This document shows, piece after piece, positions 1,285-12,310 of a DNA stretch of 12,903 nt. Each line of letters begins with the position of its first letter. Within the stretch, counting starts at the first letter, position 1. The position numbers were made by a program, and so were the translations under genes. Source of the stretch: Chitinophagaceae bacterium. GTDB lineage: Bacteria; Bacteroidota; Bacteroidia; Chitinophagales; Chitinophagaceae. The notes under the pieces are model-generated. The model had not been told where the DNA came from and did not search any database. It saw only the letters and a program-made list of their open reading frames with translations. The stretch lies in NCBI GenBank assembly GCA_023251335.1, contig JAHEZA010000022.1:1-12903 (forward strand), in the 5' to 3' direction.

Positions 1285-1800
1285 CTACTTCACTCCCCTG
1301 CTTTCGATTTTTTTAGGATTCATCTGCTGTGGCTTCATATCTTTTACGTGCGCATTTTCTATGTGAGCAGGCTTTGCATTTTTTAATTCGGCGGCAGCCT
1401 CTTTTTCTTCTTCCGTTTTTACTTTTATTTCGATTTTATTTTTCGCAATGATGTGAAACCATTTCACCATCTTCTTCATATCACTGGCATAAACCCTGTC
1501 AAAATCCATATCCGGATATACTTTTTGAAAATAACTTTTGAGTGCTTTTGGGTCGGCGCTGTTTTCCGGCACTTTCTCTTTGTTCTTTTTCATCGCCTCA
1601 AACAGTTCGGCCAGCGAAGTATTGCCGGAGGTGGCATATACTTCTATACTTTCAAGATGTGAAAAATTATGCTGGCGGGTGCTAACAAATTTGGAAACAT
1701 TGTCTTCCAGTGAGCGCACAACGGCCCCGTCAGATTTTGACGATAACAATTCAAATAAGCCGGGCATGCCGGTAACAGAAACTAGTTTACTATACTCCAT
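1285..1800 (-). CDS. DUF5606 domain protein
   Basis: Protein of 171 residues from ATG at 1800 to TAG at 1285. I recognise the Bacteroidota-specific DUF5606 family from the opening MEYSKLVSVTGMPGLFELL and the following SKSDGAVVRSLED, which matches the family pattern of a short strand, a 'G.PGLF.L' turn and a 'G.VVRSLE' strand; the next conserved block is YATSGNTSLAELFEAM. The molecular function is not known. No signal peptide or membrane span is visible, so it is presumably cytoplasmic. The C-terminal 45 residues are charged, Ala/Glu/Lys-rich and probably disordered. An upstream in-frame ATG at 1830 would add MHSRKVKNNF, but the family normally begins near the MEYSK methionine and the extension covers a probable promoter, so I prefer 1800. 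It is transcribed divergently from the outer-membrane protein cluster. Confidence 0.85.
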   Translation of the reverse strand: MEYSKLVSVTGMPGLFELLSSKSDGAVVRSLEDNVSKFVSTRQHNFSHLESIEVYATSGNTSLAELFEAMKKNKEKVPENSADPKALKSYFQKVYPDMDFDRVYASDMKKMVKWFHIIAKNKIEIKVKTEEEKEAAAELKNAKPAHIENAHVKDMKPQQMNPKKIESRGVK

Positions 1801-1826
1801 AAAATTATTTTTTACTTTTCGGGAGT

Positions 1827-1834
1827 GCAATATA
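1827..1834 (-). promoter_or_regulatory. Possible -7 box for the DUF5606 gene (TATATTGC)
   Basis: On the minus strand, TATATTGC lies 26 bp before the preferred ATG. It resembles the Bacteroidota -7 consensus TAnnTTTG with one T missing. No well-placed -33 TTTG is seen; the nearest one is about 27 bp upstream. Weak call. Confidence 0.2.
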
Positions 1835-2027
1835 ATAGAAATGGCATTTAGTTCCCGTTAACAAAATAAAAAAGTGTTTTTAACAATAGTAGTCTAATAA
1901 TCCGCCAATAACCTTAATTGCTCAAATTAGAAACGAATATTATTTGCTAATCAACAACCAGGCAATTTGTTTTTCGTCCTGCGAAGGTTTTTTGCAATTA
2001 CATCGTCCTATGATTAATTCACTCAAT

Positions 2028-4901
2028 ATGCAAAAAATTCTAGTTCTATTTTTCTCGGTAATTGTTTGTGCAAATTCTTATGGGCAAAGCGTTTCAGGAA
2101 CTGTTGAAGATGCGGGAAGCAATTCACCTCTCTCAAACGCCACCGTTAGTTTTGCTAATGCCAATTCACCCACAAAGCCTTTGCTTACGGTAAGCGGCGG
2201 CAACGGATCTTTCATTTTCAAAAATGTACCAACAGGGAATTATACTTTATCTATAACATCTGTTGGCTATAAGGCTTATGAAAAAAAGATAGTTGTAGGG
2301 GATAAAGATATTGCTCTGGGTACAATTGCCATTGCTAAAACCGCTGAAACTCTTTCAACTGTTGTAATTGACAACACACCGGCTGTAAGGCAACATGGTG
2401 ATACGCTCGATTATTCAGCGAGCAAATACAAAGTGAATCCTGATGCTACCAGTGAGGACCTGATAAGAAAAATGCCGGGAGTAACAGTGGATAAATCGAC
2501 AGGAGCGGTGACTGCCCAGGGCGAAACTGTAAAAAAAGTGACCGTAGATGGGAGAGACTTTTTTGGAGATGATGCTACCGCTACTCTAAGAAATTTGCCT
2601 GCCGATGTGGTTGACAAGATCCAGGTATTTGATAAACTCAGCGACCAGGCTCAACTTACCGGCTTTGATGATGGTAACACAACCAAGTCAATTAATATTG
2701 TTACGAAAAAAGATATGCGCACGGGAAACTTTGGGCGTATCTATGGCGGCTATGGAACGGATGGAACCTACAACGCCGGCGGCAACGTAAGTTTTTTCAA
2801 CAATGCCAGAAGAATTTCTTTGGTAGGATTGGCAAATAATGTAAACCAGCAAAACTTTTCATCGCAGGATTTACTGGGTGTAAGCAGCAGTGGAAACCGC
2901 GGGGGCGGCGGAAGACGTGGCGGCCAGGGTGGCAACACGTCCGGTTTTACAGTAGGTCCTCAAAATGGTATTGCTACCACCAATGCATTCGGGATAAATT
3001 ACAGCGATGCATGGGGAAAGAAAGTGGACGTGACAGGAAGCTATTTTTTTAATAACAGCAATACGAACAATCTCCAAACCATTGAGCAGGAAAATTTTGT
3101 TACTGCCGACTCTTCTTTATACTATAATGAAAATTCACTTTCTAAAGCAAAGAATTATAACAATCGTGTGAATTTCAGGCTTACTTACCGGATTGATTCC
3201 AGCAATACAATTATTGCCACTTCTAATTTAAATTTTCAAACCAATAATTCTATCAATCTTGTAAAGGGCAAAAACTACATTGACCAGGCAAAACAAAACT
3301 TATTAAGCGAGACTGAAAATGACATTAATAGTGATAATAAGGGAAACAATTTAAGTAATGAAGTGTTGCTTCGCCATGCTTTTTCAAAAAGAGGAAGAAG
3401 CATTTCTCTTGGGGTGAACCAGTCTTCCGGAGATAAAAACGGGGAAAATTTTTTAGACGCCTATAATAGTTATTATAAACCACTTAGCCAGGATACGGTA
3501 AAACAACTTTCTAACCAGGAAAGCAATAGTAATCAGTACCGGCTAAGCCTGGTTTACACCGAACCGATAGCTCCAAAAACACAAATGCAGATAAATTACA
3601 CCCCAACTTTCCAAACCAGCAAGGCAGACCAGGAGACTTTTGGTTATGATGATGGAAGTTCCAAGTATTCAACATTAGATACCAGCCTTAGCAATAAATT
3701 TAATAACACCTACAATACACAAAACACAGGTGTAACCTTTCGTCATGGCGACAGGAATAATATGATAGCTGCTGGCATCTCTTACCAATACAGCGAATTG
3801 AAAAGCAGCCAGGAATTTCCGCAGGTTGGAAAAATTGACAACACATACAGTAACTTTTTGGGGAATGTTTTTTCAAGGTTTAAGTTATCATCCAGAAGCA
3901 CGTTGAGGGTGATTTACCGTGGATCGGTGAGCGCGCCATCCGTAACACAATTACAAAATGTAATTAATAACTCCAACCAGTTTTTCTATACAACCGGAAA
4001 CCCTGGCCTGCAACAACAATACACCAATAACCTGATTGCACGTTATAATTATACCAACTCCGGAAAAAGTAAAAGTTTTTTTGCGAACCTTTTCCTTCAG
4101 AATATTAGCGATTATATAACCAATGCTACCTATACCGCATTCGAAGATTCGGCTCTTTCCAATACGGTGATTTTGAACAAAGGCTCGCAATTGTCTAAGC
4201 CAGTCAATATGAATGGCTACATCAGTGCACGGTCTTTTTTTACTTACGGAATGCCATTAACATTTATAAAATCAAACCTGAACTGGAATGCCGGAGTAAG
4301 CTATACAAGATTACCTGGAATGAATAATAACGTCTCTAATATTTCCAACATTACTAATTACAATTTGGGCGCTGTATTGGGAAGTAATATTAATGAGTAT
4401 ATTGATTTCAATATATCTTATTCTGCAAATTTCAATGTAGCAAAAAATACCTTTCAGCCTAACTTAGATAATAATTATTTTACACAAACGGCAGGCATTG
4501 ACGTCAATTTACTAACTAAAAAAGGAACTTTTTTCCAAAATAGTTTAGCTAATCAAAATTACAAAGGCTTGTCCGACGGCTTCAACCAGAACTATTGGTT
4601 ATGGAATATGGCCATAGGCCAGAAATTTTTGAAAGGAGAAAAAGGAGAATTGAAACTTTCGGTATTTGACCTGTTAAATCAAAATAAAAGTATTACCCGT
4701 TCTGTTACTTCTTCTTATGTTCAGGACCAGACAAACACCGTATTGCAACAATATTTTATGCTGACATTTACTTATAAATTGAAGACATTTGGAAAAGGAA
4801 AGGCTCCCGGTAATGACAGAGGAGACGAAAACCGGCATTTTGGCGGGCCGGGTGGACCTCCATTCGGCGGTGGCCGTGGCCCCGGCGGCCCTCAACTTTA
4901 G
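2028..4901 (+). CDS. TonB-receptor-like outer-membrane beta-barrel protein (carboxypeptidase-regulatory domain, plug, barrel)
   Basis: Outer-membrane protein of 957 residues from ATG at 2028. Residues 1-20 (MQKILVLFFSVIVCANSYGQ) are a signal peptide. Residues 21-110 form a carboxypeptidase-regulatory-like beta sandwich, with the typical GTVEDAGSNSPLSNATV and SVGYKAYEKKI strands. Residues 115-235 are plug-like: LIRKMPGVTVD, VTVDGRDFFGDD, LPADVVDKIQVFDKLSDQA. The rest is alternating aromatic/polar barrel sequence ending in QQYFMLTFTYKLKTFG, as in the OMP_b-brl_3 family. Unusual are a Gly/Arg-rich stretch (residues 290-302) and a Gly/Pro/Arg-rich tail of about 36 residues after the last strand. 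No TonB box is obvious, so energised transport is uncertain and the substrate is unknown. ATG at 2010 (MINSLN extension) is possible; the TTG at 1944 is not credible. It is followed 18 bp later by an ECF sigma gene, suggesting co-transcription. Confidence 0.9.
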   Translation: MQKILVLFFSVIVCANSYGQSVSGTVEDAGSNSPLSNATVSFANANSPTKPLLTVSGGNGSFIFKNVPTGNYTLSITSVGYKAYEKKIVVGDKDIALGTIAIAKTAETLSTVVIDNTPAVRQHGDTLDYSASKYKVNPDATSEDLIRKMPGVTVDKSTGAVTAQGETVKKVTVDGRDFFGDDATATLRNLPADVVDKIQVFDKLSDQAQLTGFDDGNTTKSINIVTKKDMRTGNFGRIYGGYGTDGTYNAGGNVSFFNNARRISLVGLANNVNQQNFSSQDLLGVSSSGNRGGGGRRGGQGGNTSGFTVGPQNGIATTNAFGINYSDAWGKKVDVTGSYFFNNSNTNNLQTIEQENFVTADSSLYYNENSLSKAKNYNNRVNFRLTYRIDSSNTIIATSNLNFQTNNSINLVKGKNYIDQAKQNLLSETENDINSDNKGNNLSNEVLLRHAFSKRGRSISLGVNQSSGDKNGENFLDAYNSYYKPLSQDTVKQLSNQESNSNQYRLSLVYTEPIAPKTQMQINYTPTFQTSKADQETFGYDDGSSKYSTLDTSLSNKFNNTYNTQNTGVTFRHGDRNNMIAAGISYQYSELKSSQEFPQVGKIDNTYSNFLGNVFSRFKLSSRSTLRVIYRGSVSAPSVTQLQNVINNSNQFFYTTGNPGLQQQYTNNLIARYNYTNSGKSKSFFANLFLQNISDYITNATYTAFEDSALSNTVILNKGSQLSKPVNMNGYISARSFFTYGMPLTFIKSNLNWNAGVSYTRLPGMNNNVSNISNITNYNLGAVLGSNINEYIDFNISYSANFNVAKNTFQPNLDNNYFTQTAGIDVNLLTKKGTFFQNSLANQNYKGLSDGFNQNYWLWNMAIGQKFLKGEKGELKLSVFDLLNQNKSITRSVTSSYVQDQTNTVLQQYFMLTFTYKLKTFGKGKAPGNDRGDENRHFGGPGGPPFGGGRGPGGPQL

Positions 4902-4919
4902 CATATAAATATTTTTGCT

Positions 4920-5498
4920 TTGAATGATGAAAGAGAATTAATAGCCCTCCTTAAAAAAAAAGACAGGAAAGCTTTTAAAATAATTGTGGAAGCCTGGCAG
5001 GATATGGTTTACAACACTGCACTTGGACTTTTGCAAAATGCTGAGGATGCTGAGGATACGGCCCAGGAAGTTTTTATACAGGTATATGATTCCATTCTTA
5101 CATTTAAAGAAGAATCCAAATTTTCTACCTGGCTTTATCGTATTACGGTTACTAAATCACTGGATCTTATCAGGAAGAAAAAAAGAAAAAAAAGATTTGC
5201 GTTTGTTCAAAGTTTGTACGGCAAAAATGATGAGTTGGTAAATGACCCTTCCGACTTTTTTCATCCGGGCGTAAAACTGGAAAACAAAGAAAATGCGGTT
5301 GTTCTTTTTAAGGCAGTAGAAAAATTACCCGCCAATCAAAAAACGGCTTTTATACTCAATAAAACAGAAGGTTTAAGCTATGGAGAAATTAGTGAGATAA
5401 TGAAATTGAGTGGATCGGCGGTGGATGCGCTTTTGCAACGTGCAAAAAAAAATCTACAAACGCATCTGAAAGAATATTATGAAGTAGCTTTAAAATAA
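4920..5498 (+). CDS. ECF-type RNA polymerase sigma factor (sigma-70 family)
   Basis: Protein of 192 residues that should direct RNA polymerase to a small regulon. Region 2 spans about residues 10-90 and shows YNTALGLLQNAEDAEDTAQEVF (the core-binding helix with the conserved 'DAEDxxQEVF') and FSTWLYRITVTKSLDLIRKKKRKKR. Region 4 spans about 125-182 with LPANQKTAFILNKTEGLSY and the helix-turn-helix YGEISEIMKLSGSAVDALLQRAKKNL. No C-terminal extra domain is present. The start is TTG at 4920: the first in-frame ATG is at residue 29, inside region 2, and the two overlapping ATGs at 4924 and 4927 lie in a frame that stops after five codons. It begins 18 bp after the barrel gene. The coding sequence has A9, A7, A8 and A9 runs. 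The next gene product is a likely membrane partner. Target promoters were not identified. Confidence 0.92.
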   Translation: MNDERELIALLKKKDRKAFKIIVEAWQDMVYNTALGLLQNAEDAEDTAQEVFIQVYDSILTFKEESKFSTWLYRITVTKSLDLIRKKKRKKRFAFVQSLYGKNDELVNDPSDFFHPGVKLENKENAVVLFKAVEKLPANQKTAFILNKTEGLSYGEISEIMKLSGSAVDALLQRAKKNLQTHLKEYYEVALK

Positions 5499-5558
5499 AG
5501 AAGGATTTCTATAAAAATAACGTCTAATTAAAGAGTGATAATAAAAAATATAATCATC

Positions 5559-5888
5559 ATGCAGAAAAATATCAATCATAAGATTCAGAAAGCGCTCGAT
5601 AGCCTTGACGGTATGGACAAGGCTTCAGTAAAACCATTCTTTTTTGCGAGGCTGGAAGCAAGAATGAACAGTGAGAAAAGTATTTGGGGAAATGTATCAT
5701 CTTTTGTTGCCAGGCCCGCTATTGCATTTGCGTGTATTTGTTTCATAATAATGGTTAATGCCGCTGTTATTTTTTCTTCAGCAAAAAGTAATGCCGTTAG
5801 TTCCAGCCAAAATGATGAGATTGCTACAGTAGATGAATACAGCCAGGTAAGTTCTAACCTTTTTGAATTTGTAAATACACAACCTTAA
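5559..5888 (+). CDS. Small single-span membrane protein, candidate anti-sigma factor
   Basis: Protein of 109 residues. The N-terminal ~47 residues are polar and cytoplasmic by prediction, with helix IQKALDSLDGM and the motif PFFFARLEARM (residues 26-36). One membrane span follows at about 51-74 (PAIAFACICFIIMVNAAVIF), then a short Ser/Asn-rich outer part. It has neither the HxxxCxxC motif of zinc-binding anti-sigma factors nor FecR/DUF4974 features. Its position directly after an ECF sigma gene and before a membrane-anchored Spy-like protein suggests the role that CnrY plays in Cupriavidus: holding the sigma factor at the membrane. That is inference from topology and gene order; the sequence itself is not one I can assign to a characterised family. 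ATG at 5559 is preferred to the GTG at 5535, which would add MIIKNIII. Its stop overlaps the next start (TAATG), indicating translational coupling. Confidence 0.75.
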   Translation: MQKNINHKIQKALDSLDGMDKASVKPFFFARLEARMNSEKSIWGNVSSFVARPAIAFACICFIIMVNAAVIFSSAKSNAVSSSQNDEIATVDEYSQVSSNLFEFVNTQP

Positions 5889-6388
5889 TGAACAATTCCG
5901 CAAAAATAAAGTCGCTGGTCACCATTATCATTTTCCTGTTGATAACAAATATTGCTATGTTGATCTTCTTCCTGGCCGCCGGTAGGCCGGCAGATATGAG
6001 AGAAAAAAATCGTGAATTCAATGGGATGTACAATTCACTTCAGAGTGAAGTCGGATTTACGAAAGATCAGTTAGATCAATACCAGGTGTTACGAAAAGAA
6101 CAAAGAGATAAAGTGCGCCCATTGTTTAATGAATTAAGAAACGCAAAGAAAGATTTTTATAAATTAATTTATTCTTCTTCTAATCCGGATTCGCTGATCA
6201 ATGCTGACGCGGATTCCATTGCCCAAAAACAAAAAGCGCTCGACATGCAGATGTTTCGTTATTTCAAAAATATCAGGAGTATTTGCACGCCCGAACAGCT
6301 TCCCAAATTCGATACCACGGTTACAAAGGAAATCGGGCGAATGGTCGGAGGACATCCCGGAAATACGAAACAAGGGCATTCCAAATAG
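5888..6388 (+). CDS. Membrane-anchored Spy/CnrX-like periplasmic sensor
   Basis: Protein of 166 residues with an N-terminal membrane anchor at about 9-31 (LVTIIIFLLITNIAMLIFFLA) and no clear cleavage site, then a helical periplasmic domain. Two LTxxQ-like motifs mark the Spy/CpxP/CnrX superfamily: GFTKDQLDQYQVLRKEQ (from 56) and ICTPEQLPKF (132-141), separated by long charged helices (VRPLFNELRNAKKDFYKLIY; ALDMQMFRYFKNIR). Such proteins are often annotated as heavy-metal sensors. The only histidines are in the C-terminal tail (GGHPGNTKQGHSK), so the His/Met nickel-cobalt site of CnrX is not evident and metal sensing is unsupported. The start ATG shares one base with the stop of the preceding one-span protein gene. 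I infer it is the outside sensor that controls the sigma factor through that protein; a chaperone-like role as in Spy is the alternative. Confidence 0.8.
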   Translation: MNNSAKIKSLVTIIIFLLITNIAMLIFFLAAGRPADMREKNREFNGMYNSLQSEVGFTKDQLDQYQVLRKEQRDKVRPLFNELRNAKKDFYKLIYSSSNPDSLINADADSIAQKQKALDMQMFRYFKNIRSICTPEQLPKFDTTVTKEIGRMVGGHPGNTKQGHSK

Positions 6389-6446
6389 TCTTATTTGACC
6401 AACGTCACTTATCATTCTTAAATAAATTAAAAAAAATTAAACATTC

Positions 6447-6830
6447 ATGAAAACAAAGATCACCATGTTGTTTGCATTATTGACAATGGCGACAACCATC
6501 ATTTTTGCCCAGGGCGGCGGGCAACATATGACCGTCCCTGAAAGGGTAAAAGCAACGATGGACAAAATTACCCCGGCGCTTGCCCTCAATCCGCAACAGG
6601 TAAGCAGCACAGACAGCGTGTTTACTGACTATTACACTACAATTGGTAAGGCAATGCAGGATGCGCGGGCCTCAGGCGAACGCCCTGACCGCAGCGTATT
6701 TGAAAAAATGAGGGCTGACAGGGATGCTAAATTGAAAAATATTTTCACCCCGGACCAATACACAAAATTTAAGAATGAAGTAGAAGCTACGCTTCGCCCG
6801 CAAAGAAATCCACAGGGACAGAATACTTAA
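6447..6830 (+). CDS. Secreted Spy-like (LTxxQ) periplasmic protein
   Basis: Protein of 127 residues with a signal peptide (MKTKITMLFALLTMATTIIFAQ, cleavage near residue 22) and a small helical domain. Two LTxxQ-like motifs are visible, LALNPQQV (45-52) and IFTPDQYTKF (99-108), separated by a charged segment (SVFEKMRADRDAKLKN). The spacing and motifs match the Spy/CpxP type, here in a shortened form. Mature protein should be free in the periplasm, in contrast to the anchored relative encoded just upstream. It starts 58 bp after that gene and is followed by a strong terminator, so it is probably the last gene of the cluster. A chaperone, a decoy or a feedback ligand for the sensor are all possible; there is no direct evidence for any of these. 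There is no His/Cys cluster for metal binding. Confidence 0.8.
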   Translation: MKTKITMLFALLTMATTIIFAQGGGQHMTVPERVKATMDKITPALALNPQQVSSTDSVFTDYYTTIGKAMQDARASGERPDRSVFEKMRADRDAKLKNIFTPDQYTKFKNEVEATLRPQRNPQGQNT

Positions 6831-6853: not shown

Positions 6854-6884
6854 AAAAAGGATTGCCTTCGGGCGATCTTTTTTT
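6854..6884. terminator. Rho-independent terminator, probably bidirectional
   Basis: AAAAAGG-ATTGCC, loop TTCG, GGCGAT-C-TTTTTTT form a hairpin with a 7-bp GC-containing core (one T-G pair) closed by the stable C(UUCG)G tetraloop and followed by seven T. The A-run on the left side gives a T-run on the other strand, so it can also stop transcription of the convergent engB gene, whose stop lies 56 bp away. It closes the five-gene cluster 24 bp after the last stop codon. Confidence 0.88.
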
Positions 6885-9214: not shown

Positions 9215-10915
9215 TTAATAATTATAGTCTCTTCTTGCCGCGTTCCACCTGATTCCTAAATTAAACATGCTTACATTAGGGTATCCGGTATATTTTCTAA
9301 AGAGTGCTGACCCTTCCAGGAAGAGATTTTCTTTTATTTCGTATCCTAACGTCATCGAAAGATTGGCGCAATTTACTCTTTTACCATCGCCTACATAGTA
9401 ACCATAATCTTTGGTACGGGTAGTATATAATTGAAATGGATTAGACCCAAAATTTTCCGCGGCAGAATCCAAACCCTGGAAATAATAAATAGCTCGGGCG
9501 TCTATACTCCATTTGGGTGCCGGCTGGTATTTTAGCACGCCTATTATTTCCTGGAAATTAGCCCCCAGGGGGTGAGCCAGCATTTGGTTGTAATGTGTAT
9601 AATTAGCCACAGAATCATTATGAGAATAAGTAAATGGCCTTACCCTGTCGGTTTCTAACTGCAGATCAAGATTCTTGATCTTAAATGCGTCTATATATTT
9701 TACGCCCAACTGATAACCGAATTTATTAGCCCAATAGCCGCTGTTTGTCACAATTTCGTGCACCAATAATTCATCTAAAAGCAACTGTCCATAAAACTGA
9801 AACTTCTTCGCTACATTGGCTTTAAAATCAAACCCGGCAAGCGCATTGTCCGGACTGCCTACAGTTCCTTCAATATGCCGTAAGAAAATAATTGGATTCA
9901 GATATTCAAAATCAAAATGATTGACTCTTCCAAAGATAATGCCCTCAAATAAACCGAGGTTGAGCCAGCGCGTTACATTCATACTCAAATGATGCATGGC
10001 CGCATACTTTCTATCCAGGAGGTTGTCGCCATCTTTTACAAACTGCGGCATTAATTCCATAAACAGGTTTTGATAATCAAACTTCCATATTTTGGTATTA
10101 AGTTTTAAAAACAGGTAACTGTTTCCGTCATCACTAAGGAAAAGACTTCTGTATCCATTGCCAATAAAATTCTTATCGTAGCCAAATTGTACGTCAATAT
10201 ATTTTGTCACATTAAAAGTGAAATAGCCTCTTCCATCAAAATAATCGTAGCCGTTAGTCTTGAAATTTTTGTAAAAACCCACCCCCGGCACGGCGTTATA
10301 ATCGGCAACTCGTCTTTGATAAAAAGATGGCCCGCGTTCCTGGTTGTCAGTAATGGTGCTTGAAAAACCTATCTTATTAGCAATACGTCCGCGCAAGGTT
10401 ACGCCACGTTTGTTATAATAAAGGCTTTCATCATTTCCTGATTCGGTACCAGCCTTAAATTCAATAACAGGATTTACCGCAAGATAAAAGTCCGGGATAT
10501 CGACTTCCAAAAGGTTTGGCTTGGTAACATAAAATGTATTCCAAAGAGATTTTTTACTCAAAAAGCTTTCTTTGGAACCTGAGTACCATTCCGAACTACC
10601 CATAAACAGCGAATGCAAATTATATTTATCAACAGCGGTTAGATTTATTTCTCTATTTTTATCGTCATCTTCTATTAAAGAAGAATGATCAAGATTGCCG
10701 ATACTATCTGCGTATTCCGCTTCCTGTACCATGGATCTTCGGCTATAAGGTTTCAATGTAGAAAAATTGAATTCATGAAGATATCCCTGTTTGATCTCTA
10801 ACCTGTCCATCAGATGGTATTCTTTAGAACCTTCTGGCAGATAAGTAGTTTGAGCAAAAATGATTACGGGGCAAAAAAACAGAGTTAGGCAGACCGCAGT
10901 TTTTATAACTTGCAT
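9215..10915 (-). CDS. Wzi/RemB-like outer-membrane beta-barrel protein
   Basis: Protein of 566 residues from ATG at 10915. Residues 1-22 (MQVIKTAVCLTLFFCPVIIFAQ) are a signal peptide. A mixed N-terminal part (LPEGSKEYHLMDRLEIKQG, often followed in this family by a helical stretch) leads into a barrel with many short aromatic strands; FNVTKYIDVQFGYDKNFIGNGYRSLFLSD is typical of the capsule-assembly Wzi family and of the RemB gliding-motility protein of Flavobacterium. It ends in SMFNLGIRWNAARRDYNY. Function is inferred only to the level of a surface-facing barrel, possibly for polysaccharide attachment or gliding. The open frame runs further upstream to 11158, but that part lies inside pyrC and reads as a shadow of it. 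It is convergent with porT and divergent from pyrC, with 33 bp between the two start codons. Confidence 0.82.
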   Translation of the reverse strand: MQVIKTAVCLTLFFCPVIIFAQTTYLPEGSKEYHLMDRLEIKQGYLHEFNFSTLKPYSRRSMVQEAEYADSIGNLDHSSLIEDDDKNREINLTAVDKYNLHSLFMGSSEWYSGSKESFLSKKSLWNTFYVTKPNLLEVDIPDFYLAVNPVIEFKAGTESGNDESLYYNKRGVTLRGRIANKIGFSSTITDNQERGPSFYQRRVADYNAVPGVGFYKNFKTNGYDYFDGRGYFTFNVTKYIDVQFGYDKNFIGNGYRSLFLSDDGNSYLFLKLNTKIWKFDYQNLFMELMPQFVKDGDNLLDRKYAAMHHLSMNVTRWLNLGLFEGIIFGRVNHFDFEYLNPIIFLRHIEGTVGSPDNALAGFDFKANVAKKFQFYGQLLLDELLVHEIVTNSGYWANKFGYQLGVKYIDAFKIKNLDLQLETDRVRPFTYSHNDSVANYTHYNQMLAHPLGANFQEIIGVLKYQPAPKWSIDARAIYYFQGLDSAAENFGSNPFQLYTTRTKDYGYYVGDGKRVNCANLSMTLGYEIKENLFLEGSALFRKYTGYPNVSMFNLGIRWNAARRDYNY

Positions 10916-10935
10916 ATAGTTCGCTAATAATAAAT

Positions 10936-10943
10936 TAATTTTC
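10936..10943 (+). promoter_or_regulatory. Possible -7 box of pyrC (TAATTTTC)
   Basis: Matches TAnnTTTG at all fixed positions except the last, 5 bp before the pyrC ATG. A TTG at 10910-10912 is 23 bp upstream. Placement is like that of the better box before ubiE, which lends some support; the sequence match alone is weak in such AT-rich DNA. Confidence 0.25.
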
Positions 10944-10948
10944 AAGGT

Positions 10949-12310
10949 ATGCAAAATTATCTTTTTAAAAATATTTCTGTCGTAAACGAAAATACTATTT
11001 CTGAAAAGGATGTGTATATTAAAAACGGGCGTATAGAAAAGATAGAACGACAGATAGAAATAAAAGGACGGGTTAATGAAATAGATGGGGAAGGAAAACA
11101 TCTTTTTCCGGGCGCGATTGACGACCAGGTGCATTTTCGCGAACCAGGCCTCACTCACAAAGCAACTATCTATACAGAAAGTAAAGCGGCGGTTGCCGGA
11201 GGCGTTACTTCCTTTATGGAAATGCCCAATACAATTCCCAATGCGCTTACGCCTGAATTGTTAGAAGATAAATATGTTATTGGGAAAAATAACTCATTAG
11301 CCAATTATTCATTTTTCATGGGCGTAAGCAATACGAATGCCGAAGAAGTGCTGAAAATAAATAAAAGAAAAAATGATGTTTGCGGTGTAAAAATATTTAT
11401 GGGCGCCAGCACAGGAAACATGCTGGTGGACAGCGAGCCAGCCCTGCACAAAATTTTCAGCGGAAGCGAATTGCTGATAGCGACACATTGTGAAGATGAA
11501 AAAATTATTAAAGAGAATTATAAGAATTTAAAAGCCCAAAAGCCTATTCTTGCTCCTGCAGACCATCCTGTTATCAGGAATGAAAATGCCTGCTACACTT
11601 CCTCTTCATTTGCGGTAGCGCTTGCAAAAAAATATAATAGCCGGTTGCATATTCTTCATATTACCACTGAAAAAGAACTGGAGCTTTTTACTAACCAAAT
11701 CCCCTTAAAACAAAAGAGAATTACAGCCGAAGTATGTGTGCATCACTTACATTTTACAGCAGACGATTATGAAAATCTGGGTTATTTAATAAAATGCAAC
11801 CCCGCTATAAAAGAGGCGAAAAATAAAGAGGCACTCTGGGAAGCATTGTTGGATAACCGTTTGGACGTTATCGCCACGGATCACGCGCCACATACTTTAG
11901 AAGAAAAAGAAGGGCCTTATGAACACGCACACTCCGGTTTGCCACTGGTTCAACACCCTTTATTGATGATGTTGCAATATTATAAACAAGGCAGAATTCC
12001 GTTGGAAAAAATCGCTGAAAAAATGAGCCATGCGGTAGCCGATTGTTTTAGAATAAAAGACAGGGGTTATATTCGGGAAGGAAATTTCGCTGATTTGGTT
12101 GTGGTAGATTTGAATCAATCGACCACCGTAAAAAAAGAAAATTTATTATACAAATGCGGATGGAGCCCTTTGGAAGGAGTTACTTTTCCTGCGGCTATAT
12201 TGCAAACTTTTGTAAACGGCAATCTCGTTTATAATAATTCAATTTATGGAAATACCACCTGGGATGAATCTATTAAGGGGCATCGAATGCTATTTGAAGC
12301 CGATCGATAA
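10949..12310 (+). CDS. pyrC: Dihydroorotase (class I, amidohydrolase superfamily)
   Basis: Third step of pyrimidine synthesis: reversible cyclisation of carbamoyl-aspartate to dihydroorotate, in the cytoplasm. The protein has 453 residues, within the class I range. Residues 1-50 and the last 70 form the small beta domain; the TIM barrel lies between. Visible sites are FPGAIDDQVHFREPGLTH (53-70), MPNTIPN (92-98), GVKIFMGASTGNM (146-158), ATHCED (178-183), LHILHIT (233-239) and IATDHAPH (308-315). The metal positions appear to be Q60, H62, K148, H180, H237 and D311. The usual first histidine of DxHxH is glutamine (codon CAG). The TDHAPHTLEEKE motif and substrate-binding REPG favour dihydroorotase over allantoinase or hydantoinase. 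No other pyrimidine genes are nearby. It starts 33 bp from the divergent Wzi-like gene and ends 59 bp before the MutS-family gene. Confidence 0.92.
   Translation: MQNYLFKNISVVNENTISEKDVYIKNGRIEKIERQIEIKGRVNEIDGEGKHLFPGAIDDQVHFREPGLTHKATIYTESKAAVAGGVTSFMEMPNTIPNALTPELLEDKYVIGKNNSLANYSFFMGVSNTNAEEVLKINKRKNDVCGVKIFMGASTGNMLVDSEPALHKIFSGSELLIATHCEDEKIIKENYKNLKAQKPILAPADHPVIRNENACYTSSSFAVALAKKYNSRLHILHITTEKELELFTNQIPLKQKRITAEVCVHHLHFTADDYENLGYLIKCNPAIKEAKNKEALWEALLDNRLDVIATDHAPHTLEEKEGPYEHAHSGLPLVQHPLLMMLQYYKQGRIPLEKIAEKMSHAVADCFRIKDRGYIREGNFADLVVVDLNQSTTVKKENLLYKCGWSPLEGVTFPAAILQTFVNGNLVYNNSIYGNTTWDESIKGHRMLFEADR

Follow-up and report, generated by a model that had tools for sequence, protein, structure and literature searches.

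A putative Cnr-like sigma factor relay in Chitinophagaceae and its predicted link to an RND efflux operon

The window analysed here is the whole 12,903-base contig JAHEZA010000022.1 of a Chitinophagaceae bacterium, whose genome (3.4 Mb in 671 contigs) is 86% complete. It carries five consecutive genes, encoding an outer-membrane beta-barrel protein, an extracytoplasmic function (ECF) sigma factor, a small protein with a single membrane span (the one-span protein), a putative membrane-anchored periplasmic sensor and a secreted helical protein (Table 1). We refer to these genes as the module. An earlier reading of the same sequence, hereafter the original prediction, had placed five open reading frames (ORFs) here, and all five were found at those positions on the plus strand. 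Its account of the layout also held: the barrel stop and sigma start are 18 nt apart, the stop of the one-span gene overlaps the start of the anchored-protein gene (TAATG), and the operon ends in a real terminator, a 13-bp hairpin in which an A run pairs with the U run at the base. This hairpin has a minimum free energy of -16.3 kcal/mol (z -2.31), equalled in 7 of 200 shuffles, and is absent from the list of a consensus terminator scanner. Two ECF-type promoters, P1 ahead of the barrel gene and P2 between the sigma and one-span genes, had been missed. Database records under the names Hanamia and Ginsengibacter contain matches to the window proteins, and several related loci bear the name Chitinophagaceae. 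What was computed here is the gene set and how far it is conserved, together with the promoter elements and how they co-occur with the module.

Table 1. Features of the module in the window, with the basis of each assignment.
Feature	Position	Strand	Basis
Promoter P1, ECF type, GAAGGTTT-N13-CGTC	1983..2010	+	Alignment, exact pattern, weight matrix
Outer-membrane beta-barrel protein, ATG start, N-terminal carboxypeptidase-regulatory-like domain, operon gene 1	2028..4901	+	Pfam
ECF sigma factor, RpoE/SigW-like, start codon TTG	4920..5498	+	Pfam and nearest solved structures
Promoter P2, ECF type, GAAGGATT-N13-CGTCTAA, in the sigma/one-span intergenic gap	5500..5527	+	Pattern and matrix
One-span protein, ATG start, 109 residues, probable anti-sigma factor	5559..5888	+	Alignments; topology inferred
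Putative membrane-anchored periplasmic sensor, Spy/CnrX-type hairpin	5888..6388	+	
Secreted helical protein, possibly a Spy-like chaperone	6447..6830	+	Signal peptide by eye; AlphaFold2
Intrinsic terminator at operon end	6854..6883	+	Hairpin folding

Conservation of the gene order outside this genome had been proposed as a check, and the arrangement indeed recurs in many genomes. Loci were gathered with the one-span gene as sole bait (E ≤ 0.001), which gave matches in 72 of 147 genomes from the window's family and in 135 of 395 from the phylum (own genome counted); some of the weakest phylum-wide matches fall within long ORFs and are unlikely to be true members. We inspected the surroundings of the one-span gene at 86 family-type loci and 30 other loci of the phylum, excluding the window itself. 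Before counting we dropped two loci without a one-span ORF under 260 residues (L069, L072) and two duplicates (L187 of L007, L188 of L010); an apparent false or orphan match (L247) and a locus where the contig ends (L009) were scored as misses. Seven of the 30 other loci (L259-L265) were hand-picked from the phylum matches, and the remainder are all first-set loci outside the family minus L069 and L072, plus L013.

The sigma gene lies upstream of the one-span gene in 82 of the 86 family-type loci and in 30/30 other loci, the anchored sensor lies downstream in 84/86 and 30/30, and the full trio is present in 81/86 and 30/30. The one-span and sensor genes overlap or lie at most 14 nt apart in 83 of 84 family-type loci; the gap is wider in 9 of the 30 other loci. 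By contrast, a barrel of the window's type adjoins sigma upstream in only 34/86 family-type and 0/30 other loci. Two further loci of one genus (L212, L213) bring the barrel count to 36/86; no barrel was seen in the other 50, nor in any of the 30 other loci, all of these keeping the trio as a type. Upstream sequence of 3200 nt or more was available at 77 family-type loci; a barrel was seen in 34 of these and none in the other 43. A match to the second, secreted protein lies downstream in 44/86 family-type loci, in 30 of the 34 loci with barrel and sigma adjoining, and in 2/30 other loci; 8 of these 30 carry an LTxxQ-type gene upstream of sigma instead. The unit is thus a three-gene core of sigma, one-span protein and sensor with clade-specific additions, not a five-gene core. 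The original prediction had known of no described system with this exact set; the core extends across the phylum, and the five-gene form is a family-level accretion. The barrel was rejected as an obligatory component.

In L212 and L213 the barrel, one-span, sensor and second-protein genes are contiguous and both promoter elements are kept, with no sigma gene between them. In these genomes the best sigma match has 60-61% identity and is encoded at another place, which in one of them is next to a second one-span/sensor pair (L242). A gene similar by eye to the divergent gene at 1285-1830 (minus strand) of the window, which carries DUF6852 and DUF5606, adjoins the module in L199, L212 and L213, with or without a barrel.

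The sigma factor matches PF04542 and PF08281 (sigma-70 regions 2 and 4), and its nearest solved relatives are SigW (7.8e-21) and RpoE (7.4e-19), with CnrH further away (1.1e-7). The one-span protein consists of a cytoplasmic N-terminus with a PFFFTRLEARM-type motif, a transmembrane helix and a short acidic periplasmic tail of about 35 residues, a topology that was inferred. Its family comprises 91 database proteins, the window's own counted, and an Asn inside the transmembrane window is conserved in 98 of 116 such proteins. The window's protein falls into no Pfam or NCBIfam family, and at E ≤ 0.05 none of 34 members was matched by a Pfam anti-sigma family. Nor did the PDB or Pfam give a sequence match that would tie it to CnrY (class II), although short divergent families can escape such searches. 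From its neighbours and predicted architecture, the protein is probably an anti-sigma factor. The barrel protein matches PF14905 (E 7e-24) and PF13620 (E 3.9e-14), and the PDB contains nothing related to it in sequence at E ≤ 0.01. It had been described as a plug-and-barrel protein; the barrel stands, but the plug was seen by eye only and has no Pfam plug match at E ≤ 0.1.

The sensor matches PF13801 (E 7.5e-6) and PF07813 (E 0.0014), both short of the curated cut-offs. In sequence it is nearest to E. coli Spy (E 0.002), and in a structure comparison of its predicted fold CnrX ranked first. Its transmembrane Asn is kept in 110 of 115 sensors, which also retain H125 (100/115), C133 (92/115) and H72 (73/115). 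Judged from the aligned ranges in the fold comparison, H125 is close to residue 119 of CnrX. The metal ligands of CnrX are His42, His46, Glu63, His119 and Met123. Met123 is also named in PMC7689651. Placed by aligned ranges only, these positions correspond to F44, Y48, Y65, Y125 and I129 in the window, and the ligand set is absent from the window's sensor, in which residue 125 is Tyr rather than the His of 100/115 relatives. The window's clade as a whole has Q72 (28/28 close sequences) and Y125 (27/28). An argument that the sensor family lacks histidine and hence does not bind metal was withdrawn, H125 being common across the 115 sensors. The contrast between H72/H125/C133 in many sensors of the phylum and Q72/Y125 in the window's clade might represent a natural change of ligand.

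The original prediction counted two Spy-like proteins. This applies to the anchored one; the secreted one contains LTxxQ-like stretches, yet its window sequence matched no Spy-type Pfam family. Its AlphaFold2 model (mean confidence score, pLDDT, 80.3) has four main helices and an unclear fold match, and PF13801 was matched weakly in 3 of 11 aligned relatives (best 4.3e-4). We therefore dropped the Spy fold as proven for this protein, whose predicted fold has no clear match.

P1 or a variant of it was seen by eye upstream of the barrel in 13 aligned loci, and in the window 20 nt separate CGTC from the barrel ATG. A regular expression recovered GAAGGTTT-N13-CGTC in 11 of the 13 barrel loci, the other two beginning with A; variants are GGGGAATT in L010-L012 and CATC in L045. 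In the window's own genome, the pattern search returned P1, P2 (matched over 5500-5524) and a site before the adaptor gene of a resistance-nodulation-division (RND) pump on another contig, here called P3. A weight matrix was built from 12 P1 sites and tested against dinucleotide shuffles. At p<0.01 it recovered P2 in 13 of 14 loci, all but L044. In held-out loci, where the element lies upstream of sigma, of the one-span gene or of the upstream LTxxQ gene, it found module sites in 23/26 at p<0.05 and 21/26 at p<0.01. L047, L061 and L071 failed; three of the 26, L046, L048 and L049, come from the window's family and are counted again in the following test. Among further family loci, scored with a threshold of 10 of our own choice, a site was present before the barrel in 18/22 and in the sigma/one-span gap in 18/22, and 42 of 50 loci without a barrel had one before sigma or in the gap. 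Opposite-strand controls gave 1/22 and 0/22 for the barrel and gap positions, and 4/48 and 1/48 for the positions in loci without a barrel. The case for these promoters rests on position and conservation; raw counts are not enriched genome-wide. The promoter class SM6 of Flavobacterium psychrophilum likewise has a conserved CGT box, and the promoter of an ECF/anti-sigma pair belongs to it (PMC9723704).

P3 links the module to efflux genes. In the relatives inspected, the operon behind it runs adaptor, RND permease, TolC and then purE (named by eye); in the window's own genome the permease is truncated by the contig end, and the operon lies on a different contig from the module. An RND site in a second genome was spotted among the matches listed in a loose scan of 12 genomes, and these listed matches served no other use. 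In six close orthologues P3 ends 27-35 nt upstream of the adaptor start, and in a seventh it ends 5 nt before a start that was probably called too far upstream. The more distant orthologues in L010-L012 scored 10.1, 10.1 and 5.5, and a relative with 39% identity scored 14.4 at 96 nt. A strict pattern was applied to nine of the 12 module genomes, leaving out L010-L012, where the -35 part differs. It returned P1 in 9/9, P2 in 9/9 and P3 in 7/9, together 25 of 33 matches. Seven of the eight other matches were inspected: six lie in or overlap genes and one, in the single genome L148, lies 24 nt upstream of an isomerase-like gene (by eye).

Occurrence of P3 was then compared with that of the module in the window's family, using adaptor relatives at E ≤ 1e-80 and the same score threshold. 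Thirty of the 72 module-bearing genomes were taken, 25 of which had the adaptor; the module-less side comprised 22 family genomes (20 from the family and 2 from the phylum search), 8 with the adaptor. In L301 the ORF picked was not the adaptor's, and the locus was scored as a miss. A site above threshold was present in 16/25 module-bearing and 0/8 module-less genomes (Fisher one-sided p 0.0018), compared with 0/25 and 1/8 on the opposite strand. Twelve of the 16 sites end 34-88 nt upstream of the called start. For the permease of a relative, a multidrug RND model gave 1089 bits (cut-off 1250) and the CusA/CzcA metal model 357 bits (cut-off 701). Neither cut-off was reached; by best model the pump appears to be of the drug type rather than the metal type. 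Efflux genes also adjoin the module in two loci from another family of the phylum, where MacA-MacB genes are joined to it on the upstream side (L055) or the downstream side (L058). Both loci also have a similar promoter element downstream of the sensor gene.

These results suggest a relay that appears to activate its own genes as well as a drug-type efflux pump. The cytoplasmic N-terminus of the one-span protein would tether the ECF sigma factor to the inner membrane, and its transmembrane helix and acidic tail would pair with the anchored Spy/CnrX-type sensor. A periplasmic signal binding the sensor would loosen the complex and release sigma. The signal would most likely be a toxic or amphipathic compound or a misfolded envelope protein; as the pump appears to be of the drug type, we favour amphipathic toxicants or the damage to the envelope that they bring about. 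Freed sigma would transcribe the barrel gene and its own gene from P1. From P2 it would transcribe the one-span inhibitor, the sensor and the secreted helical protein, which would provide a built-in off-switch, and from P3 elsewhere in the genome the RND adaptor, the RND pump and TolC. The response would thus combine efflux, a periplasmic helper and an outer-membrane barrel. We infer the binding between sigma and the one-span protein, the role of the sensor, the reading of P1-P3 by this sigma and the nature of the signal.

This proposal has a well-studied precedent. In Cupriavidus, CnrH is retained by CnrYX as long as CnrX carries no Ni or Co; once the metal binds, CnrH transcribes cnrYXH and the genes of an RND pump (PMC4803752, PMC7689651). 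The window's unit resembles CnrYXH/cnrCBA of Cupriavidus metallidurans in its ECF sigma factor, its membrane-bound (here putative) anti-sigma factor, its anchored sensor of the same predicted fold, and its sigma-type promoters at both the regulatory genes and an RND operon, the latter recognised here from sequence alone. NccYXH is similar to CnrYXH. Because the parts, the kind of predicted target and the predicted self-activation are the same as in Cnr, the working is most likely the same too, and we consider it likely that signal, sigma release and induction of the own operon and the RND pump follow one another as in that system. The Cnr-like working parts of the original interpretation are well supported; its idea of reporting on the barrel lacks support. 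The differences are nevertheless substantial. The gene order is sigma, one-span, sensor here and Y, X, H in Cnr; no recognisable relationship links the one-span protein to CnrY, and the sigma factor has SigW and RpoE, rather than CnrH, as its closer relatives. The ligand histidines are absent in the window's clade, the pump appears to be of the drug type and is encoded on another contig, and the window adds an outer-membrane barrel and a secreted protein. Because gene order, ligand histidines and one-span protein differ, we do not file the unit as a member of the Cnr family.

Other known systems share single traits with the module. RpoE/RseA and SigW/RsiW resemble it in sigma sequence and one-span anti-sigma topology, but no class I anti-sigma domain was recognised here, and the operon encodes a separate Spy-fold partner. 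The FecI/FecR/FecA units of Bacteroidota likewise place an ECF sigma gene next to an outer-membrane barrel gene; here, however, the barrel is a PF14905 protein encoded upstream of sigma, and FecR/DUF4974, which the original prediction had also found missing, is unmatched in the five proteins in Pfam at E ≤ 0.1. Dma1/Dma2 with Das1/Das2 of Bacteroides thetaiotaomicron (ECF21) also tie a Bacteroidota ECF sigma factor to the inner membrane and a beta-barrel, but there the barrel is the C-terminal part of the Dma anti-sigma factor itself (PMC13088901), whereas here it is a separate gene beside a one-span protein of 109 residues. Unlike Spy, CpxP and ZraP, the sensor is membrane-anchored and genetically tied to a sigma/one-span pair.

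Several results weigh against the proposed relay. The matrix missed 4/22 barrel promoters, 4/22 gaps and 8/50 loci without a barrel. The pattern gave 12 matches in the window's own genome compared with 29 for the reversed control, its loose form was rarer than the reversed control in each of the 12 genomes, and the strict form, which was shaped by sites already seen and excluded L010-L012, gave 33 matches compared with 34. A broad regulon inferred from the motif is unsupported, loose patterns having given fewer matches than the reversed control. The element also resembles a general ECF/RpoE promoter, so that another sigma factor could read P3. Four of the 16 P3 sites are oddly spaced (inside the called start or 102-148 nt away), and 5 of the 30 chosen module-bearing genomes had no adaptor found. 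The co-occurrence of module and P3 may reflect shared ancestry rather than function, and as the genomes are related, the counts are not independent. Finally, the one-span family matches no known anti-sigma domain, and the two module loci of one genus (L212, L213) lack an adjoining sigma gene.

An alternative explanation might be that the trio is the phylum's counterpart of RpoE/RseA, a general envelope-stress unit in which unfolded proteins would be sensed by the Spy-fold protein and efflux would be one target among many. The affinity of sigma to SigW and RpoE, the similarity of the sensor sequence to Spy and the LTxxQ genes behind the same promoter type in flavobacterial-type loci are in line with such a unit, but the strict pattern yielded only three conserved sites, even though a looser definition could hide more targets. 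We regard this explanation as possible, though on the unlikely side. A true metal-responsive switch like CnrX seems quite unlikely: the predicted fold and the frequent H125, C133 and H72 across the phylum would suit it, with H125 near the CnrX ligand position, but the window's clade has Q72 and Y125 instead, and the relative's permease scored far higher on the multidrug than on the metal model.

It is also conceivable that the one-span tail or the sensor monitors the assembly or occupancy of the neighbouring barrel, as the original prediction had proposed. The barrel does lie directly upstream in 36/86 family-type loci (34 adjoining sigma, plus L212 and L213), and in the latter two it stays joined to the one-span, sensor and second-protein genes even though no sigma gene adjoins them there. 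Yet no barrel was seen in 50/86 family-type and 30/30 other loci, which keep the core, no FecA-type signalling domain was recognised by Pfam in the window proteins, and the barrel usually has a sigma-type promoter of its own (18/22 held-out loci), as an output would. Barrel sensing is therefore distinctly improbable; because the same promoter type lies upstream of it and the core occurs without it, the barrel looks like an output of the system rather than the object sensed. Still less credible is that the one-span protein serves only as membrane partner of the sensor, with sigma controlled otherwise. The missing anti-sigma family match and the two loci that keep one-span protein and sensor without an adjoining sigma gene are consistent with such a role, but sigma adjoins in 82/86 and 30/30 loci, and the size, topology and conserved cytoplasmic segment of the protein suit an anti-sigma factor. 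The Cnr-like relay, with an ECF sigma factor, a one-span protein, a sensor whose fold ranks CnrX first and a sigma-type promoter at an RND operon, hence remains our preferred reading, as in the original prediction.

Elsewhere in the window, two long ORFs at 9215-11158 (minus strand) and 10949-12310 (plus strand) overlap by 210 nt; one has no Pfam match and the other is dihydroorotase-like by eye. The start of the former ORF (9215-11158) was probably called too early.

No description of this gene set was found in the searched literature, whose coverage was partial, so that its absence from print is not established. A bolder proposal, which we put forward tentatively and rate as possible rather than probable, is that the trio represents an unnamed, phylum-wide class of ECF control. 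In this class a new anti-sigma family would pair through an intramembrane Asn with a CnrX-fold sensor, whose ligand site may have been rebuilt in some clades from His/Cys (metal or redox) to organic compounds, turning a metal-type system into a switch for drug efflux. According to PMC7406223, only 6% of Bacteroidetes ECF sigma factors lie beside a class I anti-sigma domain, and the RpoE-like group ECF03 is cited there as having no conserved anti-sigma factor. If the proposal is correct, the class would supply the anti-sigma factors for part of the RpoE-like Bacteroidota ECF sigma factors reported without one. Being widespread next to RpoE-like sigma genes, the one-span family directly suggests itself as a candidate to fill some of this gap. 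A single sensor fold with and without the conserved histidines would also offer a natural series for the residue-by-residue study of ligand change. For the window's family, the relay proposed here predicts how module-bearing members would turn on an efflux pump.

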